Positions 170 to 44,529 of a stretch of 64,000 bases of DNA are shown in pieces; positions within the stretch are counted from its first letter, which is position 1, and the number at the start of each line of letters is the position of its first letter. The DNA is from Acidobacteriota bacterium (GTDB lineage: Bacteria > Acidobacteriota > Terriglobia > Terriglobales > Acidobacteriaceae). The stretch covers positions 868,001 through 932,000 of the forward strand of contig JACPYL010000010.1 of NCBI GenBank assembly GCA_016196065.1, in the 5' to 3' direction. Both the position numbers and the translations under genes were made by a program. Under the pieces are notes generated by a model. That model was not told the origin of the DNA, did no database searches, and worked only from the letters and a program-made list of their open reading frames with translations.

Positions 170-1528
170 CTAAGATTCGATGTGCCGGGGCTTCGGTTCG
201 AGAATCAGATTGTGACGCCGCACTCGGCGGCGCTGGGATTCCGGAAATGGGGCAGCTGCGGCGACGGCGCACAGGACATAGAACAGAGCGGCGTTGGCGG
301 GAATCTGGAGATTGAAGTCAAGAAAGCTGTGGATCAATATCCCCCCGCAGCCGAGCAGTGCCGCAACCGTAAGGGTGCCGTTGACGGTGTCCGTCCAGTT
401 TTTCAGTTTGGCTCTCGCACGGCGGAACGTGAGGAACAGGAACCAGATCGCAATCGCGAAGCCGGGGATCCCAGTCTCCACCAGCAGTTGTAAGTAGTCG
501 TTGTGGGCCTGATTCACAAAAAAGCTGGTGTAGAAGCTTCGGAATTGCGGGTACACAACGGGAAACGTTCCCAGCCCCCATCCGAGGAATGGTCGCTCGC
601 GCAACATGCGGAGGCAGTCGCGATCGATGGTCACGCGGACCCCGCCGGTGAGCTCCTGCCGCGTCTCACTCTCGATGCTGGCCATGCGGTGAGAGAGTTT
701 GTTTCCGCCCAGCCAAATCAGAAAGCCTATGACAACAGCCAGAAAAAGTCCGAGGGCGACGTGCTGTTTCCAATCCCCACGTTTGCGCAGCAGTATTGCC
801 AGTACGATCATCTCCGCAGCGAAGGCGAGCATGCCGCCGCGCGACCCTGAGAGAAAAATTGTTCCCGCCATCAGTGCGCCGATCCCGGCCACGACCAGCT
901 TGCGATTGCCCTCGGTGTGGCGCGACAAGGCCAACACCAGCGGGAAGGGAACGAGCATCTCCATGAGTCCAGCGTAGTGATTGTGGTTGACGTAGGGACC
1001 GTAGATCAGGCCACCCTGCTCCAGCGGCCAGATCCAATAGAGCTTGCCGTTGGGGGCGATTCCTTGCAGCAAGGAAAAAGAGGCGACCACCAGTCCGTAG
1101 CCGCAGATGATTTTGGCGAGAGATCTGGCTTGCGAGGATCGTTTTAGATTTTGCGTGGCGACAAAAACCAGCATTCCAAAGCTGGCATAAAGGAGGAGAA
1201 GCGAGTAGGTGATGTGGCGGTAAGCAGTGCTCCCCGTGATCCATTGCAGAGCCACAAGCGCGGCGAAGGCCAGCATGGGAGCATACAACGGGTGCCACTC
1301 GACCTTGATCTCCTGATGGTTCCACTGAAGGAGCCCCCACGCTATGAACAGCGCAGCAGCGCAGGATTCCAGCGAGAAGATGGCCCAGGGTTGGACCGCA
1401 CCGAAAGCCAGGGGAGCCGCAAGCAATACGACGACAGTGCCAGCCAAGAGCGCGGAACTGGATGCGCTCACGCTCAAGCGCGAAACGGACGGTTCAGGAA
1501 TGGGCGGACGTGCCAAGGCGGAACTCAT
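170..1528 (-). CDS. O-antigen ligase / Wzy-type membrane protein
   Basis: This 452-residue polytopic inner-membrane protein has about ten or more hydrophobic segments. It carries the Wzy_C/WaaL-family pattern: NHNHYAG at 181-187, SGSRGG at 227-232, and an AHNDYLQLL motif near 343 in the large periplasmic loop. Family members join undecaprenyl-linked glycan repeat units to each other (polymerase) or to an acceptor (ligase); sequence alone does not tell which. Its start overlaps the stop of the upstream TPR gene by 4 bp (ATGA), so the two are probably translationally coupled. It is the last gene of the leftward BY-kinase/TPR/ligase operon. A second Wzy-like protein lies at 24897-26312, so the two may divide polymerisation and ligation between them. 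Confidence 0.85.
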   Translation of the reverse strand: MSSALARPPIPEPSVSRLSVSASSSALLAGTVVVLLAAPLAFGAVQPWAIFSLESCAAALFIAWGLLQWNHQEIKVEWHPLYAPMLAFAALVALQWITGSTAYRHITYSLLLLYASFGMLVFVATQNLKRSSQARSLAKIICGYGLVVASFSLLQGIAPNGKLYWIWPLEQGGLIYGPYVNHNHYAGLMEMLVPFPLVLALSRHTEGNRKLVVAGIGALMAGTIFLSGSRGGMLAFAAEMIVLAILLRKRGDWKQHVALGLFLAVVIGFLIWLGGNKLSHRMASIESETRQELTGGVRVTIDRDCLRMLRERPFLGWGLGTFPVVYPQFRSFYTSFFVNQAHNDYLQLLVETGIPGFAIAIWFLFLTFRRARAKLKNWTDTVNGTLTVAALLGCGGILIHSFLDFNLQIPANAALFYVLCAVAAAAPFPESQRRRVRRHNLILEPKPRHIES

Positions 1529-2787
1529 GGCTGAGCCGCCGCAGCTTCAGGAGTCAACTGGAAATCATCGAGCCATAGCTTGCCGCGAATCGGGCTGCCA
1601 GCCGGAATGCGTTCCACATTCAAGACCAGCAGGCTGGTGGTGGGAGCCGTAGTGAAACGGGAATGCACGGCTTTCCAGAAGTCAGCTCCGTTGAGAGGGT
1701 CGCTGGTGTAGACCGCTTGTCCCGTATAGACGTCGCGCAAGACAATCTGCGGTCCACCCGCACCTTGAAACTCGGATGACTTGTAGTACGCGGTGAATTC
1801 GTAATTGGTAGCGGCGCGAACCGGAATCCATTGGTGGATTCCCGAGTCGGAGATCCCGGGACCTTCGAAGGTGACGGATAAAGAGCGTTGTCCTTCGTGG
1901 ACGTCGCTGGCGTCGAGCAGCAAGTTCACTCCGGGCTGCGTTTGGTAGGACCAGTCGAAACCTCCGTTGAGAATGGGGAGGCTGAAATCGCCGTTCACGA
2001 TCAAGTTGTCGGGTGTTGGTAGATATCCCGGCAGGTACAGCACGCTCGCAGCCTGCTCCCATGCCGCCACCGCAGCTTCAGGACGTCGTTCGCGAATCAG
2101 AAATCGAACGTAGTCCAGCAGATAATTCGTCTCGAATCTTTGATGGAGCTGGATGAGTTGGTTCCACGCCTTGATCGCAGCCTCGGTTTCAGTTCTGGAC
2201 TGGAGAATGGTTAAGAATGCGAGCAGCGAGTCCGGGCGGTGCGGAACCACGTCGCGGAGCAGAGCGTCAACGTCCGGACGAGCGCGCCAGCAAGTTTGCA
2301 GTGCCAGGCTCGGCAGATAGGGGTCATTCTCAATCACCACGCGAAATTCGCGAAGCGCGCGGTCGGTATCGCCCGCCACCAGGAAAAAATTGGCCGCCTC
2401 CCAGGCAACATCGGGCGCGGTGGGTTCTGCTTGCACAGCGTGCTCGAGTGCGGAACGCTGACCGTCAGTATTGCCAGCCACTTGATACGCGGCAGCCAAG
2501 TCGAACCAGTAACGGGCCTGATGGGGATTGAGGCGAGTGGCTGCCTCATAGCCCGCAAGCGCGGCTTGCGGATTGCCGGCGACAAACGCGAAATATCGTC
2601 CCAGGTGATGCTGGTATTCGGCGTTGCCGGGAGACAAGCGGACTGCTCGTTCGAGGCTGGGCAGGTCGGGCCGGACGCTGAAACGGCTCGCGGCAAACTC
2701 CTTGGTAGCTAAAAGCAAGTACGCGAGCGTCAGTAGAAATGACCCGGCGATCAGCCGGCGTTGGCGGCCAGAGAAAGAAATGTCCAT
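1525..2787 (-). CDS. TPR protein with C-terminal carbohydrate-binding-like domain
   Basis: This 420-residue protein has one N-terminal membrane anchor (about residues 11-33). Next come TPR-like helical repeats (about 45-250), for example LSPGNAEYQHHLGRYF and RLNPHQARYWFDLAAAY. The C-terminal part (about 262-412) begins NLIVNGDFSLP and ends KLWLDDFQLTP, the usual frame of a galactose-binding/CBM-like jelly roll. The likely role is a periplasmic scaffold that binds the nascent glycan, working with the ligase with which it overlaps by 4 bp. TPR proteins are common next to Wzy ligases and in PEP-CTERM/EPS loci. The function is inferred from architecture and position; I do not recognise a named family. 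Confidence 0.7.
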   Translation of the reverse strand: MDISFSGRQRRLIAGSFLLTLAYLLLATKEFAASRFSVRPDLPSLERAVRLSPGNAEYQHHLGRYFAFVAGNPQAALAGYEAATRLNPHQARYWFDLAAAYQVAGNTDGQRSALEHAVQAEPTAPDVAWEAANFFLVAGDTDRALREFRVVIENDPYLPSLALQTCWRARPDVDALLRDVVPHRPDSLLAFLTILQSRTETEAAIKAWNQLIQLHQRFETNYLLDYVRFLIRERRPEAAVAAWEQAASVLYLPGYLPTPDNLIVNGDFSLPILNGGFDWSYQTQPGVNLLLDASDVHEGQRSLSVTFEGPGISDSGIHQWIPVRAATNYEFTAYYKSSEFQGAGGPQIVLRDVYTGQAVYTSDPLNGADFWKAVHSRFTTAPTTSLLVLNVERIPAGSPIRGKLWLDDFQLTPEAAAAQP

Positions 2788-2822: not shown

Positions 2823-5165
2823 TCAGGCGCCAGAGGCTGCCCGCGGTTGCTCCTGTGTTTCAGCGGGCGGTTCGGGTGGATCTTCCTGATAGTAGTGACT
2901 GTATTTACCCTGGTACTCGTAGTAGTAGTAATAATCGGGCGACGTCAGGTCCACGGCATTGAGCAGAACGCCGGTGACATGAGCATTGACCTGCATCAGA
3001 ATGTCACGCGCTCGGCGGAGTGCCTGTTTGGTGGTCTGACCTGAACGGATCACGAGAATAATCGCGTCCACCCGAGGTGACAGCACAACCGCGTCGGTCA
3101 CCGAAAGCGTAGGTGGAGTGTCAATCACCACGTGATCAAACTGTTCGCGCAACTCTTTCAAAACATCTCGCATATTCGCCGAAGCCAGCAGTTCCGCCGG
3201 GTTGGGCGGCGGCGAACCCGCGGCCAGAATAAAGAGGTTCGGCAGGATCGGAGAGACGGTGATCGCCTGCTCGAGCGTGGCGTTTCCGGTCAGCACGTTG
3301 CTGAGACCGCTGCGCGGACCCATGCCCAGTGTCTTATGCACGCTAGGACGGCGCAAGTCTGCATCGACCAGCAGCACGCGCACACCTTTTTGCGCCAAGA
3401 CGATGGCAGTGTTGATCGAGGTGGTGGTCTTGCCCTCCTGCGGACGGGCACTCGTGATCATGACGACCTTGGGCGGCGCTCCCAGGCTGGATAGCAACAG
3501 GGAGGTACGCAAGGCACGATACGATTCTGCCATCTGCGACTGGGGTCGGACTTGCGTAACCAGTTCGAAGACTTCACGGGACGAAGTCAAGGAGAGACGC
3601 TTCGCTCCGGCATTTGCGTTGCTTGACTTGGAGCCGAGCGGAATCATTCCAAGCGACGGCAACGCCGAAATCATCTGCGCCTGCTCGGTGGTACGCACGG
3701 TATTGTCCATGCCCTCCAGGAGAAAAGCGAGGCCGATGCCAGAGGTGATTCCGAGGACGAGGGCAAATGCAAGATTGCGTGGAATGTTTGGTTCCACGGG
3801 AGCACCCGGCGGACGCGCGGGGTCGAGGATGCGGAAATTGGTGGACTTCAGGCTGGCAGTAACACCCGCCTCCTTCAGCTTTTCCAAAAGACCTTCGTAA
3901 AGCTGGCGGTTGGAATCGACATCGCGCTTGAGCAGGGTGTATTCGATGGCGTTTTCGTTCAGCCGATTGGCTTCCTGCTTCTGCTTGTCGAGAGCTTCGC
4001 GCAACATGCTTTGCCGCTGCACCGCGGTTTGATAGTCCCCGCGCAGGTGATCGACTGCTTTGTGCGTTTCGGCCTGGACCTGCCGCTCGATTTCCTTGCT
4101 CTGATTATTGAGCTGCGCAACTTTTGGATAGGCAGGGCCAAATTGCGTGCTGAGTTCGGCGATTTGAATTTTGAGGTCGGCTTGTTGCTGGTGCAATTTC
4201 TCCAGAAGGGGAGACGTGCCCGTTCCTCCGAGCGTCGCTACCGGCACGGAAGAGATGGCGGTGGCAATCGTGTCCGGGTCGCCATTCTGCGTCATCCGGT
4301 AGATGGCTTCCTTCTGCATGCGGTCTGACTCCGCGGCAGTCAGTTCCTTATTGAGCTCGTCGAGCTTCTGCGTGATGATGTTCTGCTTTTCGTCGATTCC
4401 GAAGATTTCGTGTTCTTTCTGGTAGCGGACGAGTTTTTCCTGCGAGGTCTCTACGTTCATCTGCAAGTCGACGAGTTTCTTTTTGAGCCATTCCGAAGCC
4501 TGCATGGTGGAATCGTATTTTGTCTTGAAATTCTGCTCAACGTAAGTGGCCGCCAGGACATTCACCGCGCTCGAAGCCAGTGCGGGATCGGTGCTGCGGT
4601 AGTGAATTTCAATAATGCGGGTATTTGGAATCAGCGAAACCTTGAGATTTCCCTTGAACCCGCCCAGCAATGCAGTCGTACGCTTGGAGTCGTCCTGCAG
4701 GGGATCGGCGACAAGGTTCGGTTGCTTGGGCGTAGGTTGTGCACCGAACTCCGGGCGCTTGTCGAGATTCAGTTGACGGATAACCTGCAAGGCAATCAAA
4801 TCGCTTTGCAGAATCCTGACTTCGGTGTCCAAGTCGGTCGGGTCATAGTAGTCCATGACCGGAACGGAATCCTTGAAGGCGACGAGGTTAGAATCGGCTT
4901 TATTGACGGCAATGCGGCCGACCGCTTCGTAGACTGGAGTCTGGCGGAGGCTGGCAATTGCGACTGCGGCGAAAATTCCTGCCGCGCAGGCGATGACGAT
5001 CCATTTCCGCTTGATAAGGACGCGCATGTACTCGCGCAAGGCTGAATCCTGCGAGGGGAGCACATTGTAGAGTCCTGGTCCAACCTGCTTGAAAATTTCA
5101 GAGGGATCGGCAGGCTGTAAGTCGCGATACCCATTGTTTTGTGGAACCAAGGGCCCTGATGCCAT
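2823..5165 (-). CDS. Chain-length determinant fused to BY-kinase (Wzz/Wzc-type)
   Basis: This 780-residue polysaccharide co-polymerase has its tyrosine kinase in the same chain. Transmembrane segments lie near 53-72 and 464-484 and flank a periplasmic Wzz/GNVR region rich in coiled coil (about 220-430). The cytoplasmic BY-kinase follows, with Walker A ARPQEGKT at 573-580, Walker A' LLVDADLRR at 598-606 and Walker B VVIDTPP at 679-685. The C-terminal autophosphorylation cluster (745-759) starts with five consecutive tyrosines and holds nine in all. Such proteins set glycan chain length through cycles of phosphorylation and oligomerisation, together with a Wza-type outer-membrane channel. It heads the leftward operon. 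A good ribosome site (AAGGAG) lies six bases before the ATG, and a strong promoter candidate sits at 5270-5297. Confidence 0.93.
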   Translation of the reverse strand: MASGPLVPQNNGYRDLQPADPSEIFKQVGPGLYNVLPSQDSALREYMRVLIKRKWIVIACAAGIFAAVAIASLRQTPVYEAVGRIAVNKADSNLVAFKDSVPVMDYYDPTDLDTEVRILQSDLIALQVIRQLNLDKRPEFGAQPTPKQPNLVADPLQDDSKRTTALLGGFKGNLKVSLIPNTRIIEIHYRSTDPALASSAVNVLAATYVEQNFKTKYDSTMQASEWLKKKLVDLQMNVETSQEKLVRYQKEHEIFGIDEKQNIITQKLDELNKELTAAESDRMQKEAIYRMTQNGDPDTIATAISSVPVATLGGTGTSPLLEKLHQQQADLKIQIAELSTQFGPAYPKVAQLNNQSKEIERQVQAETHKAVDHLRGDYQTAVQRQSMLREALDKQKQEANRLNENAIEYTLLKRDVDSNRQLYEGLLEKLKEAGVTASLKSTNFRILDPARPPGAPVEPNIPRNLAFALVLGITSGIGLAFLLEGMDNTVRTTEQAQMISALPSLGMIPLGSKSSNANAGAKRLSLTSSREVFELVTQVRPQSQMAESYRALRTSLLLSSLGAPPKVVMITSARPQEGKTTTSINTAIVLAQKGVRVLLVDADLRRPSVHKTLGMGPRSGLSNVLTGNATLEQAITVSPILPNLFILAAGSPPPNPAELLASANMRDVLKELREQFDHVVIDTPPTLSVTDAVVLSPRVDAIILVIRSGQTTKQALRRARDILMQVNAHVTGVLLNAVDLTSPDYYYYYEYQGKYSHYYQEDPPEPPAETQEQPRAASGA

Positions 5166-5297: not shown

Positions 5298-5401
5298 GCC
5301 AATAATTGCACTTACGGCATGTTCTATTTCTGGAAGGGTCGCGGGGCAATTGCTGGGCCGAGCAGGTGATGGCAGTGAGGACTCACCCGAGACTCCTCCG
5401 C

Positions 5402-5407
5402 TATACT
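5402..5407 (+). promoter_or_regulatory. -10-like TATACT upstream of pseB
   Basis: TATACT lies 48 bases before the pseB start in the divergent intergenic region (5166-5455). No good -35 hexamer is visible at the right spacing. A weaker alternative is TTGATT (5267-5272), 16 bases, TACTCT (5289-5294). Confidence 0.3.
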
Positions 5408-5455
5408 AGGCAGCACAAGAACTTCGCCCGACAAAGGTCACTACAAAAGGAAACC

Positions 5456-6466
5456 ATGGTGAATTGGTCGCAGGAATCGGTGCTGGTAACGGGCGGCACG
5501 GGGTCCTTTGGGAAAAAATTCGTTGACATCATGTTGCGTGACTACCAGCCTCGCCGGTTGGTGATTTTCAGCCGCGACGAACTCAAACAGCACGAGATGC
5601 GGGAGTCCGGCTTCCAGCATCCCAGCTTGCGTTACTTCATCGGTGACGTCCGGGACGTCGATCGCTTGAAACGGGCCATGTCCGGGATCACGATGGTGAT
5701 TCACGCCGCCGCGCTGAAGCAGGTGCCGGCCTGTGAATACAATCCGTTTGAAGCCATCCAGACGAACATCATGGGTGGTCGCAACGTAATCGACGCCGCC
5801 ATCGATACGGGTGTGCGCCAGATTTTGGCCCTCAGCACGGACAAGGCCGTGAATCCGATTAATCTCTACGGTGCAACCAAGCTGTGCGCGGAAAAGATGT
5901 TTGTCCAGGCGAACGCTTATGCCGGTGCGCAGAACACGCGCTTCAGTTGTGCGCGCTACGGCAACGTCGTGGGCAGCCGGGGCAGTGTGATCCCGATTTT
6001 TATCGAACAGCGGAAGCGCGGCAAGATCACGATTACCGACCAGCGCATGACGCGCTTCTGGCTAACGCTCGATCACGGAGTGAAATTTGTGATCAGTTGT
6101 CTGGAGCAGATGCACGGCGGCGAGATCTTCGTCCCGAAGATTCCCAGCATGCGATTACTCGATCTGGCGGAGACGATCGCGCCGGGCTGTGGGATCGAGA
6201 CGATTGGCATTCGCCCGGGCGAAAAGTTGCACGAAGTATTGGTTTCGGAAGACGAGTCTCGCAACACGTTGGAGACGGAAGAAATGTACGTGATTCAACC
6301 GTCGCATCCCTGGTGGACGTCGGCAAACTGGGCGCAAGGCAAGAAATTGCCGGAGGGATTCCGCTATTCCAGCGACAACAATAGCCAGTGGCTGACGCGG
6401 CGCGAACTGGAAGACCTGGTTGCGCCGGACTTGAACGCCGCAGAAGCGCTGCCGACCTCGGCCTAG
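5456..6466 (+). CDS. pseB: UDP-GlcNAc 4,6-dehydratase (inverting), PseB
   Basis: This 336-residue short-chain dehydrogenase-fold enzyme carries out the first step of pseudaminic-acid-type synthesis. It converts UDP-GlcNAc to UDP-2-acetamido-2,6-dideoxy-L-arabino-hexos-4-ulose by 4,6-dehydration with C5 inversion. The NAD(P)-binding TGGTGSFG motif is at 12-19, STDK at 127-130, and the catalytic YxxxK pair is Y138/K142. The open frame extends upstream to 5306. I chose the ATG at 5456 because AAAAGG sits five bases before it and the protein then starts just ahead of the Rossmann strand, as in the family. pseC follows after a 3-base gap. This is the first gene of the long rightward operon. Confidence 0.93.
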   Translation: MVNWSQESVLVTGGTGSFGKKFVDIMLRDYQPRRLVIFSRDELKQHEMRESGFQHPSLRYFIGDVRDVDRLKRAMSGITMVIHAAALKQVPACEYNPFEAIQTNIMGGRNVIDAAIDTGVRQILALSTDKAVNPINLYGATKLCAEKMFVQANAYAGAQNTRFSCARYGNVVGSRGSVIPIFIEQRKRGKITITDQRMTRFWLTLDHGVKFVISCLEQMHGGEIFVPKIPSMRLLDLAETIAPGCGIETIGIRPGEKLHEVLVSEDESRNTLETEEMYVIQPSHPWWTSANWAQGKKLPEGFRYSSDNNSQWLTRRELEDLVAPDLNAAEALPTSA

Positions 6467-6469
6467 GAC

Positions 6470-7681
6470 ATGAGCACCACACCCACAAAACTTGGTCCGC
6501 TGGCCATCCATGGGGGAACTCCTGTGCGGGAGACGTTCCTGCCCTACGGGCGGCAGAGTCTGGACGAGGAAGACATCCAGGCCGTCGTGGACGTGCTGAA
6601 GTCGGACTGGCTAACGACCGGACCGAAGGTCGGAGAATTCGAGGAACAGTTCGCGGCCTGGGTAGGAGCAAAGCACGCCGTCAGTTTCAGTTCAGGAACG
6701 GCCGCACTGCATGGGGCGGCGTTTGCCGCAGGCCTAAAGGCGGGCGACGAAGCGATCACGACTCCGATGACGTTCTGCGCGACCGCAAATTGCGTTCTGT
6801 ACCAGGAGGCGACTCCGGTCTTTGCAGATGTTACCCAAGACACGCTCAATCTTGATCCCGAAGAAGTTTCCAGAAAGATTTCTCCGCGAACGAAAGCGAT
6901 TATTGCAGTGGACTACGCAGGCCATCCCGCAGATCTGGCGCCGTTGCGGGAACTCACCGCGAGGCACGGACTGCTGCTGATCGAGGATGCATGTCACGCG
7001 CTCGGTGCCGAGTATCGCGGCCAGCGTGTCGGCGGGATTGCCGACATGACGGCGTTCAGCTTTCATCCCGTGAAGCACCTGACCACTGGCGAAGGTGGCA
7101 TGGTGACCACCAACGATCCGAAACTCGCCGAGACGCTGCGTCGCTTTCGCAATCATGGCATCAGCAGCGATGCCAGACAGCGTCAGCAAAGCGGCCAGTG
7201 GTTCTATGAGATGGTCCTCCTCGGTTTCAACTACCGGCTGACGGATATCGCTTGCGCGCTCGGACTATCGCAGCTTCAAAAACTCGATGCGAACCTTACT
7301 CGCCGGCGCGAGATTGCAGTTCGCTACACGAGGGCCTTCCATGAGATGCCAGCGGTGATCGTTCCCGCAGTGCGAGACGGGATCGCTCCCGCATGGCATC
7401 TATATCCCATTCGATTGAAGTTGGAAGGGCTGTCGACGGGGCGTACGGAAGTCTTCAGAGCTTTACGAGCCGAGAATCTGGGCGTGAACGTGCACTACAT
7501 TCCCGTGCATCAACATCCGTACTATCGGGAGCGCTTTGGGTACAAAGGCGGCGAGTATCCGGTAGCCGAGGATGCCTATGAGCGGCTAATCAGCCTGCCG
7601 ATGTTTCATTCCATGACGGACCGGGATATTGAAGATGTAATCGCGGCGGTGGGCAAAGTCTGCGAAGCTTATGCCCGGTGA
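6470..7681 (+). CDS. pseC: UDP-4-amino-4,6-dideoxy-N-acetyl-beta-L-altrosamine transaminase, PseC
   Basis: This 403-residue PLP-dependent DegT/DnrJ/EryC1-family sugar aminotransferase adds the C4 amino group to the PseB product. The N-terminus (AIHGGTPVRE) and the FSSGTAALHGA phosphate-binding segment (about 73-83) are typical. D173 in EDACHALGA and the Schiff-base lysine K202 in SFHPVKHLTTGEGG are present. It sits 3 bases after pseB, the usual pseBC pair. The two genes together make the substrate of an acetyltransferase; candidates are the gene just downstream and the GNAT half of the PseG fusion at 13165. Confidence 0.93.
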   Translation: MSTTPTKLGPLAIHGGTPVRETFLPYGRQSLDEEDIQAVVDVLKSDWLTTGPKVGEFEEQFAAWVGAKHAVSFSSGTAALHGAAFAAGLKAGDEAITTPMTFCATANCVLYQEATPVFADVTQDTLNLDPEEVSRKISPRTKAIIAVDYAGHPADLAPLRELTARHGLLLIEDACHALGAEYRGQRVGGIADMTAFSFHPVKHLTTGEGGMVTTNDPKLAETLRRFRNHGISSDARQRQQSGQWFYEMVLLGFNYRLTDIACALGLSQLQKLDANLTRRREIAVRYTRAFHEMPAVIVPAVRDGIAPAWHLYPIRLKLEGLSTGRTEVFRALRAENLGVNVHYIPVHQHPYYRERFGYKGGEYPVAEDAYERLISLPMFHSMTDRDIEDVIAAVGKVCEAYAR

Positions 7682-7705: not shown

Positions 7706-8275
7706 ATGTCCGATACGGCAGCATTCCTAAAAGGCACGAAGATTTACCTGCGCCCACTTGAGCGCACAGACTTGAACGGAACGTACCTGGGATGGCTGAA
7801 CGACCAAGAGGTCGCTCGGTACCTGGAGACCGGGATATTTCCTACGACTCTGCAAGACCTCGAAAAATTCTACGAGAGGGTCACGGGCTCACCGACGGAA
7901 GTGATCTTTGCCATAGCCGACAAAAAATCGCACCAGCACATCGGCAACGTGAAACTGGGGCCGATCCATTGGGTACACCGGCGCGCCACGCTCGGGATCA
8001 TGATTGGTGCAAAGAAATTCTGGGGTAAGGGTGTTGGTGAAGAAGCGACACGATTGATGGTGGAGTACGGATTCTTCCGGCTGAACCTGCATCGTATCGG
8101 TCTCGGCGTGTTTGAGGAACATGAGTCCGCGGTTCGCTGTTATCAGAAAGTCGGCTTCAAGGTAGAAGGCTGCCTGCGCGAGCAGTTGTTCCAGGCAGGT
8201 GCCTACAAGAATCATCTCTGGATGGGCCTGTTGCGTTCGGAATACCAGCATCTCAAAGCGGGCAAACGCAAATGA
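7706..8275 (+). CDS. GNAT N-acetyltransferase (RimJ/RimL-like), possible PseH role
   Basis: This 189-residue GNAT-fold protein has an N-terminal IYLRPLERTDL strand/helix. Its acetyl-CoA-binding segment FWGKGVGEEATRLMVEYGF lies near 108-126, followed by LHRIGLGVFEEHESAVRCYQKVGF, a typical RimJ/RimL C-terminal half. In this position it could acetylate the 4-amino group made by PseC (the PseH step), or another amine of the sugar. A second GNAT domain is fused to PseG at 13165-14676, so which one does the PseH step is open. It follows pseC closely and overlaps the next gene by 4 bp (ATGA). Confidence 0.8.
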   Translation: MSDTAAFLKGTKIYLRPLERTDLNGTYLGWLNDQEVARYLETGIFPTTLQDLEKFYERVTGSPTEVIFAIADKKSHQHIGNVKLGPIHWVHRRATLGIMIGAKKFWGKGVGEEATRLMVEYGFFRLNLHRIGLGVFEEHESAVRCYQKVGFKVEGCLREQLFQAGAYKNHLWMGLLRSEYQHLKAGKRK

Positions 8276-31459: not shown

Positions 31460-31533
31460 AAGTCAACGGATGTTCATGAAGTTGCAGATTTCGGCTAACA
31501 TAGTGTTACTCCTTGCCTGCCATCGGAACCAAT

Positions 31534-36652: not shown

Positions 36653-38386
36653 ATGTTGATTTTGGGCCTGAATATGTTTCACGCCGACGCGTCGGCGGCG
36701 ATCATTGACGACGGCAAGATTCTTTTTGCAGTGGCCGAGGAGCGGCTTAATCGACGCAAGCATTACGGCGGGTTCCCCTCACTGGCCGTGAAGGCGTGTC
36801 TTGACGCCGTGGGTGCAAAGATCACAGACGTTGCCCATGTGGCGGTGGGACAGGACAGCGACGCGCACCTCGCGAAGAAGATCCAGTACGCGCTTGCCAA
36901 TCCCGCAAAGATTCTGAACTTGCTTAAAATGCGCCTGCGCAAAGAGGGCATGCGCGACGTTCGATCGCTACTGGCGAAGGCGCTCGACGTAGATGCCTCC
37001 ACGCTCAAATTTCAGGAGCATCATCTCGAACACCATATCGCCCATATCGCGAGTTCGTACTACTGCTCGCCTTGGGAGAAGGCTGCCGGGTTCAGCTACG
37101 ACGGCTCCGGTGATTTCGTGTCGACGATGAAGGTGCGTTGCGAGGGAAACGATATCGAGGTGCTCGAGCGCGTATTCCTTCCGCATTCGCTGGGTAGCTT
37201 CTACACCATGATCTGCGAGTTCATCGGCTACAAGAAATATGGCGATGAAGGCAAAGTGATGGGCCTCGCGCCTTATGGAAAAGATACCTACGTCGAACAG
37301 ATCGAGAAGATTCTGACGCTCAAGAACGGAACGTTTCAACTCGATCTGGATTACTTCATGCCGCTGGGCAGCAATCAGGGAATGGAAGTTCTGGCCGACG
37401 GAACGGTTCGCCTGGCGAGGCATTTCTCAGACAAGATGGAAAAGCTGTACGGCGCGCCGCGAGAATCGCATGCCGAAATTACGCAGCGCGACATGGACCT
37501 CTCGTACGCGATGCAGCATTGCTTCGAGGAAATATTCTTCCACCTGTTAAATGACCTCCACCACCGCGTGCCGGAAGAAAATTTAGCCATGGCCGGCGGG
37601 TGCGCGCTGAACAGTGTTGCGAATGGCAAGCTCTTCTCGCGAACGCCATTTCGTCGTACATGGATTCAACCCGCTGCCGGAGATGAAGGGCTGGCAATCG
37701 GTGCAGCCTTGCATACCTACCATTCGGTCCTGAAACAGCCACGGCGTGAGCACATGAATCATGCTTACCTGGGACCTGAGTTTTCGGAAGCCCAGATCGC
37801 GTCAGATTTGGCGGCTGCCGGAGTGAAGTATGAGAAGTGTGAGCGCGGGCCGCTGCTCGACGCCGTTTCCGATGAGATGGTGAAGGGCAACGTGGTGGGA
37901 TGGTTTCAGGGGCGCATGGAATGGGGCCCTCGCGCGCTGGGCAATCGTTCCATCGTGACGCATCCGGGCCTGCCCAACATGAAGGATGTACTCAATGCGC
38001 GGATCAAGCATCGCGAATGGTTTCGTCCTTTTGCGCCGGCAATTCTTGCGGAAGCGCAGCATGAATATTTCGAGCACGATCATCCGTCGCCCTACATGAT
38101 GCATGTGTACAAAATTCGCCCCGACAAGCGAAAACATTTGTGTGCGGTGAATCACGTCGATGACACAGGGCGGTTGCAGACGGTGACGCGTGAGGAGAAC
38201 GCGCTCTACTACGACTTGATCCGGACCTTCGGCAAGAAGACGGGCGTGCCGGTAATTCTGAACACCAGTTTCAACGAAAACGAGCCAATCGTGTGCACGC
38301 CGAAGGAAGCGATCGACTGCTTCCAGCGAACGAAAATGGATGTTCTTGCGATCGGCCCGTTTGTTGCGCGAAAAATCAGCGACTGA
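36653..38386 (+). CDS. NodU/CmcH-family carbamoyltransferase
   Basis: This 577-residue enzyme transfers a carbamoyl group from carbamoyl phosphate, through carbamoyl-adenylate, to a sugar hydroxyl. The N-terminal Kae1-like domain has LGLNMFHADASAA and the metal-binding EHHLEHHIAHIASSYY near 120-135. The YRDC-like C-terminal half has GRMEWGPRALGNRSI, KHREWFRPFAPAI and NTSFNENEPIV. It has the usual family length. It starts directly after the previous stop with GAGGA upstream. It probably carbamoylates a glycan residue. Confidence 0.9.
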   Translation: MLILGLNMFHADASAAIIDDGKILFAVAEERLNRRKHYGGFPSLAVKACLDAVGAKITDVAHVAVGQDSDAHLAKKIQYALANPAKILNLLKMRLRKEGMRDVRSLLAKALDVDASTLKFQEHHLEHHIAHIASSYYCSPWEKAAGFSYDGSGDFVSTMKVRCEGNDIEVLERVFLPHSLGSFYTMICEFIGYKKYGDEGKVMGLAPYGKDTYVEQIEKILTLKNGTFQLDLDYFMPLGSNQGMEVLADGTVRLARHFSDKMEKLYGAPRESHAEITQRDMDLSYAMQHCFEEIFFHLLNDLHHRVPEENLAMAGGCALNSVANGKLFSRTPFRRTWIQPAAGDEGLAIGAALHTYHSVLKQPRREHMNHAYLGPEFSEAQIASDLAAAGVKYEKCERGPLLDAVSDEMVKGNVVGWFQGRMEWGPRALGNRSIVTHPGLPNMKDVLNARIKHREWFRPFAPAILAEAQHEYFEHDHPSPYMMHVYKIRPDKRKHLCAVNHVDDTGRLQTVTREENALYYDLIRTFGKKTGVPVILNTSFNENEPIVCTPKEAIDCFQRTKMDVLAIGPFVARKISD

Positions 38387-38413
38387 CATTTGGCACTCAG
38401 CAATCGGTCCGCT

Positions 38414-39475
38414 ATGACAGTGCCCGGAAGTTCCGCAAATTCGCAGCCGCCTCGACTTCAGCGTCAGCGGACTTATCGCGGCATTCGTATCCTCGCGTGG
38501 GACGGTGACGTCCTGTACGCCTGTCGGGGTTATGAAATTGTTCGGCTCCGTTCGAACGGGCAAGACTGGGAAACGGTCGCGCGGTTCCATCCTGCATGGT
38601 GGCGCCATGTCACGTCGCAGACGAATCTGACCTACCGCCTGGTGCGGGACGGGTTCCACGCGGTGGTTGTTCTGCGTGACGGAACGATGATCGGCGCGGT
38701 TCCCGGCGGCATCGTAACCTGCAAAGGACAAAGCGGAAACTTTGCGGTCACGCATCGAATCGTCCGAGGGACGCGCCCCTTGCACATTGCTGCGACACCG
38801 TCAGGAAAACTATTCTGGGGCGAATACTTCGACAATCGGGAACGCGCGGAAGTTCATATCTATGCTTCCGATGACCAGGGCGAGACATGGGAAGTTGCGT
38901 ACACGTTTGCGTCCGGCAGCGTCCGGCACGTACACAACGTCGTCTACGATCGCTGGGCTGACTGTTTGTGGATACTGACTGGCGACGAAGGTGCGGAGTG
39001 CAAAGTTCTCCGAGCATCGAGTGATCTACGTTCGATCGAGACGGTGCTTGAAGGCAATCAGCAAACTCGCGCGGTTGCCGCAATTCCAACCGAGGGCGCG
39101 TTGTATCTTGCCACCGACACCCCCTCGGAGAGTAACCATGTTTACCGCTTTGACCGTTCGGGAAAGATCGACCGGGTGGGCGATCTGAACAGTTCGTCAA
39201 TTTACGGTTGCCGGGTTGCCGATGCAATATTTTTCTCCACGATGGTCGAGCCGAGTGCGGTGAACACAGACCGAAAAGTGCAAATCGCAGGAGCGAGAGA
39301 GGGAAGCGATTGGCACACATTGGCACAGTGGAAGAAAGACAATTTGCCGATGCGCTATTTTCAATACGGCAATGCGATTCTCCCCGACGGCGAAAATTCT
39401 ACTCGAATCCTCGCGGCCACTACGATTGCAGTCGAGGATGGCGATCTCACCACCACACTCTGGGATGTTGAATAA
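38414..39475 (+). CDS. Beta-propeller (BNR-like) protein, function unknown
   Basis: This 353-residue protein has repeated short strands of sialidase-like/BNR type, for example YASDDQGETWEVAYTF near 165. The repeats suggest a propeller without recognisable catalytic residues. No signal peptide or membrane anchor is visible. The start is uncertain: ATG at 38414 is used, although TTG at 38390 is in frame and neither has a good ribosome site. It lies between the carbamoyltransferase and the C5-epimerase-like gene, so a role in binding or modifying the glycan is possible. Confidence 0.5.
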   Translation: MTVPGSSANSQPPRLQRQRTYRGIRILAWDGDVLYACRGYEIVRLRSNGQDWETVARFHPAWWRHVTSQTNLTYRLVRDGFHAVVVLRDGTMIGAVPGGIVTCKGQSGNFAVTHRIVRGTRPLHIAATPSGKLFWGEYFDNRERAEVHIYASDDQGETWEVAYTFASGSVRHVHNVVYDRWADCLWILTGDEGAECKVLRASSDLRSIETVLEGNQQTRAVAAIPTEGALYLATDTPSESNHVYRFDRSGKIDRVGDLNSSSIYGCRVADAIFFSTMVEPSAVNTDRKVQIAGAREGSDWHTLAQWKKDNLPMRYFQYGNAILPDGENSTRILAATTIAVEDGDLTTTLWDVE

Positions 39476-39510: not shown

Positions 39511-40491
39511 ATGAGCTTCCGCACTCGCTGGCACTACTACCGCCGTATTTTCAGCGCATATCTTGGCTCTGGCCGAAGCCAATTGACTTTCTGGCATGAG
39601 GTGCCGGAGGCTAACCCGCGGGCCAGCCGCGACCGGCTCGGTGAGTACTACATGTTGTTCCGAGAAAAAGCCGACTACGCCGGACACCACGATGCGGACG
39701 GTGTTCCGATGCTCGACTATCACGGAACGATCGGCCTGCGGTACAACCCGATCGCAATCGCGCAGTGGGGATTGGGAAATTACAACCTGCTTTCCGAGGC
39801 GCAATTTGAAAGCCGATGGCAAAAAGCAAAGGCGGCCGCGGATTGGTTGTGCAAGAACCTTCAGCAAAACTCTCAGGGCCTGTGGGTTTGGAATCATCAT
39901 TTCGACTGGGAATATCGCGACACTCTGAAGGCACCGTGGTACTCGGGACTGGCGCAGGGGCAGGGAATTTCTCTGCTCCTGCGAGTTCACGCTCATTCCG
40001 GAGAAGAAAAATATCGTGAGGCGGCACAGCGAGCGTTCATTCCGCTGACAAAAGATGTTGGCTCGGGCGGAGTGCTTTTCGAAGACCAGAACAAGAATAT
40101 CTGGATCGAAGAATATCTCGTCAACCCGCCGACCCACATCCTCAACGGCTTCATGTGGGCTCTGTGGGGAGTGTTTGACTATTGGATTGTCAGCCAGGAA
40201 ACAGAGGTGAGAGAGCTGTTCAATCGCGGTGCATCAACGGTTCTGGCAAACCTCGCGCACTACGACACTGGCTATTGGTCGCTCTATGAGCAATCGGGAA
40301 CGCGGCTGAAGATGCTGGCCAGCCCGTTTTATCATCGACTGCACATCGTGCAGTTGCGAATCATGACGATGCTGACAGGCAGCAGTCTGTTTAACGACGT
40401 TGCGAACCGGTGGGAAGGCTATCTGCGATCCCCCGCAAATCGCAGGCGGGCGCTGGTTGGAAAAGCGCTATTCAAGTTGTTGTATTACTGA
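39511..40491 (+). CDS. D-glucuronyl C5-epimerase-like protein
   Basis: This 326-residue protein resembles the catalytic C-terminal domain of heparan-sulfate glucuronyl C5-epimerase. The (alpha/alpha) toroid motifs are visible: KAPWYSGLAQGQGISLLLR, THILNGFMWALWGVFDYW and YDTGYWSLYEQSG. Related enzymes change D-glucuronate to L-iduronate in a polymer. No signal peptide is evident, so it may act on lipid-linked units in the cytoplasm. ATG at 39511 is preceded by GGAGG eleven bases upstream. A WbuB-like GT4 follows after 2 bases. Confidence 0.75.
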   Translation: MSFRTRWHYYRRIFSAYLGSGRSQLTFWHEVPEANPRASRDRLGEYYMLFREKADYAGHHDADGVPMLDYHGTIGLRYNPIAIAQWGLGNYNLLSEAQFESRWQKAKAAADWLCKNLQQNSQGLWVWNHHFDWEYRDTLKAPWYSGLAQGQGISLLLRVHAHSGEEKYREAAQRAFIPLTKDVGSGGVLFEDQNKNIWIEEYLVNPPTHILNGFMWALWGVFDYWIVSQETEVRELFNRGASTVLANLAHYDTGYWSLYEQSGTRLKMLASPFYHRLHIVQLRIMTMLTGSSLFNDVANRWEGYLRSPANRRRALVGKALFKLLYY

Positions 40492-40493
40492 CC

Positions 40494-41720
40494 GTGAAGA
40501 TTCTCTACGTATCGCAATATTTTCCTCCGGAGATGGGAGCGCCTGCGGCGCGGGCGTCGGAGTTGTCCCGCCATTGGGCGCGGATGGGGCACGAAGTGAC
40601 TGTGCTTACCGGTTTTCCAAATCATCCGACCGGAGTGGTTCCAGCCGAATGGCGTGCGCGTTTGCGAAGGCTCATCCACAAAGAAGTTGTCGATGGAGTC
40701 CAAGTAGTGCGCACATGGCTGTGGCCTTTACCCAATCGGAAAGCGCATGAGCGGATACGGAACTACGCATCGTTCTGGCTGTCGGCATCGCTCAGTGGAT
40801 TGAGTCTGCAGAAGCCTGACGTTGTCATCGGCAGTTCGCCACAATTGCTTGCCGCGCTCGCGGGATGGTGGATTGCCTACTGGAAGCGGGTGCCGTTTGT
40901 TTTTGAAGTCCGTGATTTGTGGCCAGAGTCACTGGCTGCGGTCGGAGCCGGCGGCGAAGGCTCCGTGCTCCATCGCTCGCTGGGAGTGATTGCGGGATTT
41001 CTCTACCGGCGAAGTCGTCACATTGCGGTCGTGACGCCTGCTTTCAAGGATCACCTGATTCAGCACTGGAGGGTTCCCGCCGAGAAAATTTCAATTGTTG
41101 AAAACGGAGTCGAAACGGAACTCTTCCGTCCGTGTCCGCCGGGAACTGTTCCCGGCACCGAAGGCCGATTCGTAGTTTGCTACATCGGCACGATGGGTAT
41201 GGCGCACGGTCTGGAGACTCTGATTGCTGCTGCCGAACAACTCCGCGACAGATTTCCGGAGGCGGTCTTTCTGATGATCGGCGAAGGTGCGGAGAAAGAG
41301 CACATCGTAGAACTCGCACGAGCCCGTGAGTTGACGAATATTGTCTTCCTAGACCAGCAACCGCGCGAGCATATCCCCGCGTACATTGCGGGTTCTGATG
41401 TTTGCCTGGTCATGCTCAAGAAAACGGACCTATTCAAGACGGTGATCCCAACCAAGCTACTGGAGTACATGGCATGCGAGAAGCCGGTGCTTGTCGCGGT
41501 GGATGGTCAGGCTCGTCAGGTTGTTGAAGAGGCGAAAGCGGGCGTGTTTGTGGAGCCTGACGACGCCGAGGCACTCGTCCAGGCAATCCTGTCTCTGGCG
41601 GCGGATCCAGACGGGAGGAGGCAGATGGGTATCAGAGGACGCCAATATATCGTCAGCCGGCTCTCGCGGGAGCAAACCGCACGGACATACATCACTGTCC
41701 TGGACAGGCTGCACAGCTGA
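40494..41720 (+). CDS. GT4 glycosyltransferase, WbuB-like
   Basis: This 408-residue GT-B enzyme has YVSQYFPPEMGAPAARASELSRHW at its start. It also has FEVRDLWPESL, the EKISIVENGVETELF region, YIGTMGMAHGLETL and the IPTKLLEYMACEKPV motif. These features match WbuB/WbuL-type transferases that add an N-acetyl-fucosamine-type sugar to polyprenyl-linked units. I chose GTG at 40494, two bases after the previous stop; the longer frame to 40410 would lie inside the C5-epimerase-like gene. It is the last gene of this rightward block. Confidence 0.88.
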   Translation: MKILYVSQYFPPEMGAPAARASELSRHWARMGHEVTVLTGFPNHPTGVVPAEWRARLRRLIHKEVVDGVQVVRTWLWPLPNRKAHERIRNYASFWLSASLSGLSLQKPDVVIGSSPQLLAALAGWWIAYWKRVPFVFEVRDLWPESLAAVGAGGEGSVLHRSLGVIAGFLYRRSRHIAVVTPAFKDHLIQHWRVPAEKISIVENGVETELFRPCPPGTVPGTEGRFVVCYIGTMGMAHGLETLIAAAEQLRDRFPEAVFLMIGEGAEKEHIVELARARELTNIVFLDQQPREHIPAYIAGSDVCLVMLKKTDLFKTVIPTKLLEYMACEKPVLVAVDGQARQVVEEAKAGVFVEPDDAEALVQAILSLAADPDGRRQMGIRGRQYIVSRLSREQTARTYITVLDRLHS

Positions 41721-41740: not shown

Positions 41741-42730
41741 TCAGCGAATCGCGATCACGGCCAAAGCGGACGTCATGGAGAAGGCCGCTTCTGCGCTGCG
41801 ATAGGCGAGCGCCTTGCCTGCGCTGCCCGGCACGAACAACACATCGCCTTTCAGCATCGCGACATCCGGAGATTTTGCACGCAGTACTTTCTGGAGCGGT
41901 ACCGGTATCTCTTTCACTCCGTCCGGAGTCTGGCGCAGAATCTTGGATCCGTTCAAAGAGGCAGTGCGTGTGCCCCCGCCGGCCAGGGCGAGAGCCTTGA
42001 GAACCGTCAGCGAGTTGTCTTCGATCATGAAGCCGCTCGGCCGCGCCACATCGCCTACAACATACACAATTCCTGCGCGGGACACGACGATCGTGTCACC
42101 TGCATTGATGGCCACGTTGTTGTCGGTGTCCTCGGCAAGGTTCGAGGGAAGATGCAGTTCCATTTTTTGATCGGGATTCTGACGATGAATGATTGTGACG
42201 TTTCGGCCAGCCTTTTCCGTTAATCCACCCGCCGCAGAGATCAGGTCGAAAAGGTGGCGATCGCCGATCACGGGATACGCTCCAGGGTGCGCGACTTCGC
42301 CCATCATGTTGACCGCTTGCGATGCCGATTCATTCACAAAAATACTGACATGAGGATTGCGGACAAACCCACCATCCTCGAGACGTTTCTGGACCAGATC
42401 CTGGGCTTCGTCCACGGTAAGGTCGGCGATGTGCACGTAGTCGACCAAGGGAAGATACACATCTCCGCCACTACCGATGCGTGCCTTGGTGCTGAGATCG
42501 GGAACTCCAAACACCGTCAGCTCAATCAAGTCGCCCGCACTCAGTTTTGCGGTGGGACTGAACGGTGAGCGCAGACCGGTCTGGGGAGCCGTGCCCGCGG
42601 TTGACGCTGCAGTAGATAGCGGCGCGGCCGCATCGGGAGCCGGGGTTTGGGCGAGCGCGGACACGCTCAGCACACTAAGAATCAGCAGGCACAACGGTTG
42701 CGAATAAGAGCGGCGAGTCTGCCGAAACAT
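41741..42730 (-). CDS. Polysaccharide export protein (Wza-like, SLBB domains)
   Basis: This 329-residue periplasmic/outer-membrane export protein has a signal peptide (about 1-27, cleaved near SALAQ) and no lipobox cysteine, unlike E. coli Wza. The Poly_export domain contains AGDLIELTVFGVPDLS and VYLPLVDYVHI. Two SLBB repeats follow (about 140-310), with VMMGEVAHPGAYP-like and VVGDVARPSGF segments. It forms or gates the export channel opposite the Wzz/BY-kinase encoded 37 kb away. GAGGAG lies seven bases before the ATG. It is transcribed convergently with the WbuB-like gene. Confidence 0.9.
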   Translation of the reverse strand: MFRQTRRSYSQPLCLLILSVLSVSALAQTPAPDAAAPLSTAASTAGTAPQTGLRSPFSPTAKLSAGDLIELTVFGVPDLSTKARIGSGGDVYLPLVDYVHIADLTVDEAQDLVQKRLEDGGFVRNPHVSIFVNESASQAVNMMGEVAHPGAYPVIGDRHLFDLISAAGGLTEKAGRNVTIIHRQNPDQKMELHLPSNLAEDTDNNVAINAGDTIVVSRAGIVYVVGDVARPSGFMIEDNSLTVLKALALAGGGTRTASLNGSKILRQTPDGVKEIPVPLQKVLRAKSPDVAMLKGDVLFVPGSAGKALAYRSAEAAFSMTSALAVIAIR

Positions 42731-42987: not shown

Positions 42988-44529
42988 TTGACTTTGCTAT
43001 TTTTAGGGATATTCGTAGTTTCCTTGGTGGTGTCCTTCGCCGCGACACGCCAAGTGCGCGACGTGGCCAATCGTCGCGGGTGGATCTCAGTCCCAAAAGA
43101 CGGGCGTCATGTTCATCAGACTGCGCTTCCGCGTCTGGGTGGCGTAGCGATCTTCCTGGCGTTTTCCTTAAGTCTGATCCTGTGGCTGGGCCTATCTCTT
43201 GTCTATCCAAATCTACTGAAGGGTCTGGCTCCGGAAACTCTTCTGCGGATCTACGTTCCTGCCTGCCTGATCTTCTGTCTCGGGATCTACGATGATTTGC
43301 ACGGTGCCGGCCCGTATCTGAAGTTTTCCGTTCAGGTGATTGCGGCCACGATGTTGTTTATCGGCGGGATGCGGATCCTCGATCTGCCGGTTTTGTTCGG
43401 CGCGCACAGCTTGCCCTGGTTCGTGGGTTTGCCACTGACGGTCTTGTGGGTGGTAGCGATCACAAATGCGTTCAATCTGATTGACGGGTTGGACGGATTG
43501 GCGGCAGGTTCGGCGCTGTTCTCTACCGTAGTGTTTTTTATCGTCGCTCTGGTGAATGAGTCCTGGCTGGGTTCGCTGATGAGCGTGGCGTTGGCGGGAG
43601 CGATTCTTGGTTTCCTGCGCTTCAATTTCAATCCAGCAACGATTTTTCTGGGAGACTCGGGCAGCCTCTTCATCGGTTTTGTTCTCAGCGCGCTGGCGTT
43701 GGCCGGAGCGCAAAAAGCACCCACACTGGTTGCGGTAGCAATTCCGGTGGTTTCCTTCGGCCTGCCGATTCTGGAAACGGCCCTTTCGATTTTGCGGCGA
43801 CTGATTAGTGGGCGGCCGATTTTCACTGCCGATCGAGAACACATCCATCACAAACTGCTCGAGATGGGTTTTTCGCACCGGCAAGTAGTTATCGTGCTGT
43901 ATGCCGTGTCGGCATTGTTTGCGATGTTGAGCCTGTTTTTGCTCTGGCCTACGGGAAGCACGTTGGGGTTGGTTCTGGCGGTGGTTGGTACTGGGGTGTG
44001 GCTCGGCGTCCAGCACTTGAATTACTTGGAGTTCGGAGAACTCCGGCGAGTGGCCCTACGCACGATCGAACAACGTCAGATCGTCATCAACAATCTCGCG
44101 ATCCGCCGGGCTGTCGAAGAACTGAAAGTTGCGACCAGCTACGATCAAGTCCGAAGCGTTCTGCTGGCTGCTTTCGAGGGCAACGATTTTGACGCGTTTG
44201 AGCTACAACTGAAGGCCCTGTCGGGCGATCAGGGGAGCTTCGTGGAGATGAATAAACCCTTTCATTGGACGAAGATCCCGCACATTGTTTCAATTTCAAC
44301 TATGCCTTCCTGGAAACTGACCTTGGAACTGGTCACGACCACGAACCGGCGTCGCGGATCGCTGGTTGTTTATCGCGTCTATAGCCAAAGAGGTCTGCAA
44401 CTGGATGTCAACCTGATCACGTCCGCATTCCCGGTTGCCCTGGCTGATGCTCTGGACCGAGTTTTTGCCACAGCTGAGGTTCTGACGACAGCCCCCGGTG
44501 AAGTGCAATATCTTGCAGCTAACCTCTAA
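42988..44529 (+). CDS. WecA/MraY-family undecaprenyl-phosphate sugar-1-phosphate transferase with C-terminal extension
   Basis: This 513-residue polytopic glycan-initiating enzyme has the family motifs: GIYDDLHG near 97-104, NAFNLIDGLDGLAAG near 155-169, NPATIFLGDSGSLF near 213-226, and the His motif REHIHHKLL near 281-289. It attaches a sugar-1-phosphate, probably GlcNAc-1-P, to undecaprenyl phosphate on the cytoplasmic side. WecA-family members usually end near residue 350. This one has about 160 extra, mostly soluble residues of unknown function (QRQIVINNLAIRRAVEELK onward). The start is TTG at 42988, with AAGGA ten bases upstream. Two promoter candidates precede it. Confidence 0.87.
   Translation: MTLLFLGIFVVSLVVSFAATRQVRDVANRRGWISVPKDGRHVHQTALPRLGGVAIFLAFSLSLILWLGLSLVYPNLLKGLAPETLLRIYVPACLIFCLGIYDDLHGAGPYLKFSVQVIAATMLFIGGMRILDLPVLFGAHSLPWFVGLPLTVLWVVAITNAFNLIDGLDGLAAGSALFSTVVFFIVALVNESWLGSLMSVALAGAILGFLRFNFNPATIFLGDSGSLFIGFVLSALALAGAQKAPTLVAVAIPVVSFGLPILETALSILRRLISGRPIFTADREHIHHKLLEMGFSHRQVVIVLYAVSALFAMLSLFLLWPTGSTLGLVLAVVGTGVWLGVQHLNYLEFGELRRVALRTIEQRQIVINNLAIRRAVEELKVATSYDQVRSVLLAAFEGNDFDAFELQLKALSGDQGSFVEMNKPFHWTKIPHIVSISTMPSWKLTLELVTTTNRRRGSLVVYRVYSQRGLQLDVNLITSAFPVALADALDRVFATAEVLTTAPGEVQYLAANL

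Follow-up and report, generated by a model that had tools for sequence, protein, structure and literature searches.

We analysed a 64,000-nucleotide stretch (the window) of contig JACPYL010000010.1, positions 868,001 to 932,000, from the 5.5-Mb, 29-contig genome of an acidobacterium of the class Terriglobia (assembly GCA_016196065.1). Between positions 170 and 44529 the window holds 32 main open reading frames (ORFs) and one 70-amino-acid ORF at 18649–18861. This segment is a real, conserved Wzy-type exopolysaccharide (EPS) locus, with a nearly complete gene set for the synthesis and export of one complex surface polymer. Relatives from other genera share the gene content and much of its arrangement, indicating that the locus is not a chance assembly.

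The components of a Wzx/Wzy pathway found here are a WecA-type phosphoglycosyltransferase, PF04932 domains in two proteins, a Wzz chain-length protein joined to a kinase and an OPX export protein (Table 1). A preliminary description of the window, made from its letters alone, had listed nonulosonate synthesis and a series of tailoring enzymes. Every enzyme class that it named was recovered in its place by Pfam and NCBIfam scans, which covered 40 and 30, respectively, of the 44 main ORFs in the window; the last four ORFs, beyond 58627, lay outside the Pfam scan. For two entries the support is partial. Of the two NodB-like proteins, the first carries a deacetylase domain and the second has no Pfam or NCBIfam match, with the SDDWG and H..H motifs kept in 5/5 aligned copies. 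Of the dual acyltransferase, one half is an Acetyltransf_6 domain and the other is without Pfam support.

Table 1 Features of the exopolysaccharide locus and its right flank (AF2, AlphaFold 2; pLDDT, predicted local distance difference test; BY-kinase, bacterial tyrosine kinase; GT, glycosyltransferase; ADH, alcohol dehydrogenase)
Feature	Position	Strand	Evidence
Wzy_C/O-antigen ligase family membrane protein (left frame)	170..1528	-	Pfam PF04932 7.5e-24
TPR protein with CBM_4_9-like domain (left frame)	1525..2787	-	Pfam TPR; CBM_4_9 25.6 bits, just under 25.9 cut-off
Wzz chain-length protein fused to BY-kinase	2823..5165	-	Pfam Wzz, GNVR, AAA_31; TIGR01007 above cut-off
PseB	5306..6466	+	TIGR03589 500 bits, cut-off 407.75
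PseC	6470..7681	+	TIGR03588 485 bits, cut-off 423.5
GNAT acetyltransferase, PseH candidate	7706..8275	+	PF13302; TIGR03585 50.9 bits, under cut-off 93.1
Gfo/Idh/MocA dehydrogenase, nonulosonate branch	8272..9279	+	Pfam; fusion in L116
PseF-type cytidylyltransferase fused to class-III aminotransferase	9072..11321	+	CTP_transf_3, Aminotran_3; true start probably ~9270 (by eye)
GT-B-fold protein, candidate pseudaminyltransferase	11420..13165	+	No Pfam/NCBIfam; AF2 pLDDT 86; Foldseek
PseG fused to GNAT (second PseH candidate)	13165..14676	+	TIGR03590 217 bits, cut-off 153.55; TIGR03585 39.3 bits, under cut-off 93.1
PseI, pseudaminic acid synthase	14640..15731	+	TIGR03586 500 bits, cut-off 340.25
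NodB-type polysaccharide deacetylase	15728..16828	+	PF01522 9.9e-17
FemAB/CelD-type acyltransferase with GNAT-like second half	16893..18623	+	PF13480 4e-19, residues 167-312; second half by eye only
70-aa conserved protein	18649..18861	+	44-50% to five relatives' loci; no Pfam
NodB-like protein (putative)	18858..20006	+	No Pfam/NCBIfam; SDDWG in 5/5
Alkaline phosphatase/sulfatase superfamily protein, no membrane segment	20003..21496	+	PF00884 1.3e-43
GT4 glycosyltransferase GT4a	21493..22581	+	Pfam
GT4 glycosyltransferase GT4b	22518..23756	+	Pfam
GT4 glycosyltransferase GT4c	23744..24904	+	Pfam
Wzy polymerase	24897..26312	+	PF04932 3.6e-13; 10 hydrophobic segments (simple hydropathy script)
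GT4 glycosyltransferase GT4d	26319..27494	+	Pfam
Membrane protein, GT-C-like	27561..28697	-	NF046093 33 bits, under cut-off 150; 8 hydrophobic segments
AsnB-type amidotransferase 1 (AsnB1)	28762..30687	+	Pfam; TIGR01536 above cut-off, TIGR03108 below
Methyltransferase	30765..31418	+	PF08241 4.9e-10
GT2 glycosyltransferase (right frame)	31513..32439	+	Pfam
AsnB-type amidotransferase 2 (AsnB2; right frame)	32445..34421	+	Pfam; TIGR01536 above cut-off
Two-domain Zn-ADH and Gfo/Idh dehydrogenase (ADH/Gfo; right frame)	34418..36652	+	Pfam
NodU/TobZ-type carbamoyltransferase (right frame)	36653..38386	+	Pfam; PDB 7xb6 2.1e-85
Asp-box beta-propeller, no known family	38390..39475	+	AF2 pLDDT 79; Foldseek propeller matches
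Compact GlcE-type D-glucuronyl C5-epimerase	39511..40491	+	PF06662 4.4e-44; PDB 6hzz 3.9e-28
GT4 glycosyltransferase, WcaI-like, GT4e (right frame)	40410..41720	+	Pfam, NCBIfam; WcaI model below cut-off
Wza-type OPX export protein	41741..42730	-	PF02563 2.1e-17
WecA-type phosphoglycosyltransferase	42988..44529	+	PF00953 9.9e-40
PilZ-GAF-Sel1 protein	44607..46289	+	Pfam; downstream of WecA in relatives too
Radical SAM protein, right flank	46334-47470		75-83% identical in 6/6 full-locus relatives reaching there

Fixed frame, variable centre and tailoring genes

Gene-by-gene comparison with the loci of seven relatives, all complete or almost so (G086, G117, G069, G158, G159, G160 and G161), revealed a mosaic of a fixed frame and a variable centre. 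The left frame consists of WzyC, TPR and Wzz/kinase genes, and the right frame runs GT2–AsnB2–ADH/Gfo–NodU–propeller–C5-epimerase–GT4–Wza–WecA; the pseudaminate cassette, glycosyltransferases, Wzy and deacetylases make up the centre. Median identities of right-frame proteins, where present, are 84% for NodU, 79% for AsnB2 (counting a 35% copy in G086), 79% for the radical SAM protein and 74% for WecA, and PseB, PseC and Wzz/kinase reach 77–80%. Central proteins have medians of 39% (GT-B-fold protein), 38% (PseG), 47% (Wzy), 51–55% (GT4a–d), 45–53% (deacetylases) and 47% (alkaline phosphatase (AlkP)-type protein), and several of the genes are swapped or relocated. PseB, PseC, PseG, PseI (40% in G069), the GT-B-fold protein, GT4a–e, the propeller and the epimerase are present in all seven relatives; Wzy, NodU, ADH/Gfo, GT2 and AsnB2 are present in six, one AsnB2 being the 35% copy elsewhere in its locus. 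The left frame occurs in four of the seven, is missing from G086 and G160 and falls on the side of G069 that was not covered. G069 has no GT2, AsnB2, ADH/Gfo or NodU, and about 35 kb of other genes precede its propeller. In some relatives, G086 and G071 among them, the AsnB2 position is taken by an AMP-ligase-like protein, with a weak Pfam match, and a DUF362 protein (L032:3485-6432).

Conserved flanks around a variable centre are the usual pattern of capsule and O-antigen loci. Wzx/Wzy capsule, O-antigen and EPS loci resemble the locus further in WecA, Wzy, Wzz/BY-kinase, Wza, glycosyltransferases and modification genes; here, by contrast, the frame itself holds a tailoring block, and Wzx is absent from the locus. 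The frame genes provide markers by which one type of Terriglobia EPS can be recognised.

The number of tailoring enzymes, which the preliminary description had called unusual, is for the most part not exceptional when judged within the lineage, where most of the set recurs in relatives and so explains the list. G159 has ten tailoring-type genes (a Gfo–PseF–aminotransferase ORF, NodB2, AlkP-type, methyltransferase, AsnB1, AsnB2, ADH/Gfo, NodU, propeller and epimerase), which follow the order of the window except that the methyltransferase lies ahead of AsnB1. Exceptions are the first GNAT gene (7706..8275), with no orthologue in the seven relatives, and the first deacetylase and dual acyltransferase, found in two of the seven and also in G071, G123 and G134.

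PseB, PseC, PseG and PseI all exceed their NCBIfam equivalog cut-offs, which makes pseudaminic acid, or a compound derived from it, the most likely identity of the predicted nonulosonate. A cytidylyltransferase domain (PF02348, 1.6e-35) lies in the 9072..11321 product. The known PseB-C-H-G-I-F pathway differs from this cassette, which contains a PseG–GNAT fusion, a PseF–class-III aminotransferase fusion and a Gfo/Idh enzyme. We assign this first Gfo/Idh enzyme to the nonulosonate branch because in L116:8726-11809 a single 1028-amino-acid ORF encodes a Gfo/Idh domain (Pfam) fused to the cytidylyltransferase and class-III aminotransferase domains, and because G159 and G161 likewise carry Gfo/Idh, PseF and aminotransferase within one long ORF. 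The GT-B-fold protein is a candidate pseudaminyltransferase. Its Foldseek matches are mostly UDP-GlcNAc 2-epimerases, with polysialyltransferase 5wc6 and TarL also among them, at template modelling (TM) scores to the query of about 0.4. We did not adopt the 2-epimerase function of the best matches, given these scores and a genomic context that would favour a transferase.

Among the other tailoring enzymes, the carbamoyltransferase (577 amino acids) resembles NodU/TobZ O-carbamoyltransferases in both Pfam halves and over nearly the full length of its PDB match. The AlkP-type protein was considered as an S1 sulfatase and rejected: a motif search found no formylglycine motif (C/S-x-P/A-x-R), and a threonine is aligned at the nucleophile position in 7/7 copies, as placed through the weak first stretch of an alignment to 7oz8. 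Threonine nucleophiles are known from phosphoethanolamine transferases, which makes phosphate chemistry possible for this protein.

Acidobacteria are abundant in soil, but few of their EPS genes have been connected to the chemistry of an EPS. Our literature search found no paper linking an Acidobacteria exopolysaccharide with pseudaminic acid. One study of two Acidobacteria EPSs reports an analysis of seven neutral and uronic sugars, with glucuronic acid in both polymers and hydrolysis that its authors considered not ideal for uronic acids (PMC5259719).

The C5-epimerase and the adjoining Asp-box propeller

The uronate C5-epimerase-like protein of the preliminary description proved to be GlcE-type, and the propeller beside it had been overlooked. 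The C5-epim_C domain of the epimerase scores 150.7 bits against a cut-off of 23.3 and matches human GlcE (PDB 6hzz). Residues E201, Y202, N212, Y259 and Y274, invariant in 7/7 aligned copies, correspond to the GlcE catalytic residues E499, Y500, N510, Y560 and Y578 (with a hand-counted chain-to-human offset of 90), the five named in PMC13308652. In another alignment of the epimerase, one row (L085) differs at one of these columns and another (L093) at all five; the latter is probably a wrong-frame extraction, as the same gene read as L040 keeps all five residues. With the catalytic set intact, the chemistry best predicted for the polymer is a uronate inverted at C5, whether iduronate or another, and the conserved epimerase would predict iduronate in such polymers. 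Animal GlcE, the heparin-modifying epimerase, shares the C5-epim_C domain and the five residues; the window enzyme differs in its length of 326 amino acids, in leaving unaligned by sequence the stretch between GlcE chain residues 133 and 317, which bears on the central beta-sandwich and dimerising hairpin of GlcE, in its lack of a hydrophobic segment and in adjoining a propeller. Two papers by Raedts on bacterial C5-epimerases may already list acidobacterial homologues. The closest known enzymes are animal GlcE and the D-glucuronyl C5-epimerase of Bermanella marisrubri, the likeness to the latter being drawn through GlcE rather than by direct comparison; a 2026 paper calls the Bermanella enzyme the only bacterial one identified (PMC13308652).

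The 361-amino-acid neighbour is modelled as a beta-propeller and has no Pfam, NCBIfam or PDB sequence match. It carries what we take to be one clear Asp-box, SDDQGETW, and R83, R86, R129, E145, R152, H182, R227 and D243 are invariant in 48/48 aligned copies. The Asp-box and the propeller model recall Asp-box propellers such as sialidases, from which it differs in belonging to no sequence family and in showing no hydrophobic segment by a simple hydropathy script. Foldseek matches, at TM scores to the query of 0.46–0.59, include a rhamnose-glucuronate lyase and a P. aeruginosa pseudaminidase/neuraminidase. The latter tops the list, but at a TM score of 0.46–0.47 among 1190 matches reaching E 0.001, and we did not use a sialidase (GH33) assignment.

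When 84,980 species genomes were searched for two short peptide patterns, a search that would miss homologues lacking them, the propeller was almost confined to Terriglobia: 45 of 47 loci are assigned to Acidobacteria/Terriglobia or members, one to Omnitrophota (43% identity) and one to Gemmatimonadetes (29%). Counting only loci with enough flank, the C5-epimerase lies on the 3′ side of the propeller in 41 of 44, with GT4e (36/38), Wza (28/32) and WecA (25/29) also downstream. Among 150 genomes, eight hold both proteins, two the epimerase only, one the propeller only and 139 neither (Fisher p 8e-11, in a test that ignores relatedness, counts epimerases at ≥57% identity and places four genomes with only distant matches under neither). 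The two genomes with the epimerase only, from the order sample, have a close copy of it and no propeller match. An obligate pair is disfavoured by the 9.8-kb Omnitrophota contig, on which the propeller stands beside ADH/Gfo and GT4 genes and the epimerase is absent.

We propose, tentatively and with more doubt than confidence, that the propeller and the GlcE-type enzyme form a cytoplasmic two-protein unit that would invert a lipid-linked uronate, yielding an iduronate-containing, glycosaminoglycan-like, carbamoylated and pseudaminylated EPS, and that the invariant propeller residues would form a carboxylate-binding site. The two proteins might instead run another uronate reaction, as a lyase or hydrolase, or merely bind glycan. 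The unaligned stretch between GlcE residues 133 and 317 in the epimerase comparison and the lyase and pseudaminidase among the propeller's structural matches speak for this alternative; it is nonetheless unlikely, with all five GlcE catalytic residues kept in 7/7 copies. We found no description of an epimerase–propeller pair in the open-licence literature. The pair is the most novel part of the locus.

One polymer or several pathways

That the whole locus builds one heteropolysaccharide, as the preliminary description had it, remains the best reading, and a single Wzx/Wzy-type pathway is probable. Its product would carry pseudaminic acid, carbamoyl, amide and acyl groups and a C5-epimerised uronate. 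From the genes, their families, the conserved neighbourhood and the catalytic residues we infer a shared pathway, its order of steps, its chemistry and its use of a distant Wzx. WecA would load a sugar phosphate onto undecaprenyl phosphate; GT4e, the GT2 enzyme and the four central GT4 enzymes would assemble the repeat unit, and the GT-B-fold protein would attach the pseudaminic acid derivative. UDP-glucuronic acid supplied from elsewhere in the genome, where UDP-sugar dehydrogenase families have six matches over cut-off, would provide the uronate, which the GlcE-type epimerase, perhaps with the propeller, would invert at C5 in the cytoplasm at the lipid-linked stage. At that same stage the unit would be carbamoylated (NodU), amidated (AsnB1 and AsnB2), methylated and acylated. 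A flippase encoded on another contig (C25) would export it, Wzy would polymerise it, Wzz/kinase would set its length and Wza would export the polymer, with the PilZ protein perhaps coupling the locus to cyclic di-GMP (c-di-GMP).

Several observations weigh against a single pathway. Wzx, which such loci usually though not necessarily contain and whose absence the preliminary description passed over, has no Pfam match among the 40 scanned window proteins and no tblastn match from the Wzx of six relatives, whereas a Wzx-type protein lies in the locus of 11/11 relatives in which the Pse side was examined (by Pfam in G086, G069, G071, G123, G134, G158 and G160, the last two being of another subgroup; by similarity in G117, G159, G161 and G133). 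In five relatives the 70-amino-acid gene directly follows Wzx; the window keeps this gene, with an upstream gap of just 25 bases. The host genome has three PF01943 matches, of which C25:95990-97555 is 43–54% identical to the locus Wzx of six relatives and the other two 21–26%. The neighbours of the C25 gene, the next being a methyltransferase, have no similarity to locus genes except a distant GH3, and we regard C25 as the inferred source of the flippase. In addition, neither PseH candidate reaches the TIGR03585 cut-off (50.9 and 39.3 bits against 93.1), and promoter and terminator scans performed at chance level and were not used, leaving co-transcription unsupported. NodU lies upstream of the propeller in 27 of 41 loci with enough flank and is missing from the other 14, 13 of which keep the epimerase and 11 of which have GT4e downstream, implying that propeller and epimerase act apart from carbamoylation.

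Linkage between the two sides of the locus also varies. Among 12 propeller-bearing genomes, a close PseI (≥71%) was found in ten, on the same contig as the propeller in four and on other, often short contigs in six; the remaining two are G150, without a match, and G153, with one of just 36%. In a separate order sample, propeller and GT-B-fold protein share a contig in four of the eight genomes that hold both, the GT-B match of G091 being weak. Two genomes, G071 and G134, carry the Pse cassette and the right frame on different contigs and look truly split, since these contigs extend far beyond the spacing seen elsewhere, unless their metagenome-assembled genomes (MAGs) are wrongly assembled. 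These splits, the loss of close PseI in G150 and G153 with the propeller kept, and two Wzy_C proteins, one of which could give the left part a polymerase or ligase of its own, would suit two or more independent pathways side by side, in which the left part would make a pseudaminate glycoconjugate (for instance on a surface protein) and the right part an EPS. We think such an arrangement rather unlikely. In the seven relatives a single block of broadly conserved gene order contains both parts and, wherever that end was examined, closes with Wza/WecA, and the assemblies are MAGs, in which split loci may partly be artefacts. In G071, the part on C12 starts with WzyC and ends with Wzx, and that on C31 extends from the AlkP-type gene as far as WecA. 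The 46 kb examined on C12 hold WzyC, Wzz, the Pse genes and Wzx without Wza or WecA, and the 55 kb examined on C31 hold Wzy, Wza and WecA without Wzz or any locus-Wzx orthologue (this genome has two Wzx-like matches, one on C12 and one on C33). Since neither stretch by itself encodes all of Wzx, WecA, Wza and Wzz, the two parts most likely continue to work together. A 462-amino-acid membrane protein on C31 looks MBOAT acyltransferase-like by eye, and two further membrane proteins lie near the contig end.

An exosortase (XrtA/PEP-CTERM)-associated EPS locus is highly improbable and was rejected. Both AsnB proteins match the XrtA amidotransferase model TIGR03108, FemAB-like and deacetylase genes are present and the genome encodes two exosortases. 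However, the TIGR03108 scores are 441 and 511, below the cut-off of 817, matches to the chain-length and kinase models of the XrtA system also stay under theirs, and the exosortases lie outside the locus, about 120 and 190 kb away, near other Wzx, Wza or Wzz-like genes.

Right flank and window-wide features

The preliminary description ended the locus at 44529, the end of WecA. The genes up to that point are there, but the boundary is too short: the PilZ/GAF gene, the radical SAM gene and more genes follow on the same strand with gaps of 18–77 bases. PilZ/GAF and radical SAM genes lie downstream of WecA in 6/6 full-locus relatives reaching there, sometimes after a gene-sized gap, and of the 25 propeller loci with enough flank, 19 have a PilZ-GAF-Sel1 homologue downstream, some again with such a gap after WecA. 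The residues that we take to be the PilZ motif look intact by eye, and the protein is a possible c-di-GMP input to the locus. At its C terminus the WecA-type protein carries about 170 additional residues.

A genomic-island origin was rejected, as GC content is even across the window (0.55–0.60), the window contains no tRNA genes and no Rfam match, and repeats are sparse. One intergenic inverted repeat, at 60322-60435, has 43-nucleotide arms that are 91% complementary and a 28-nucleotide loop.

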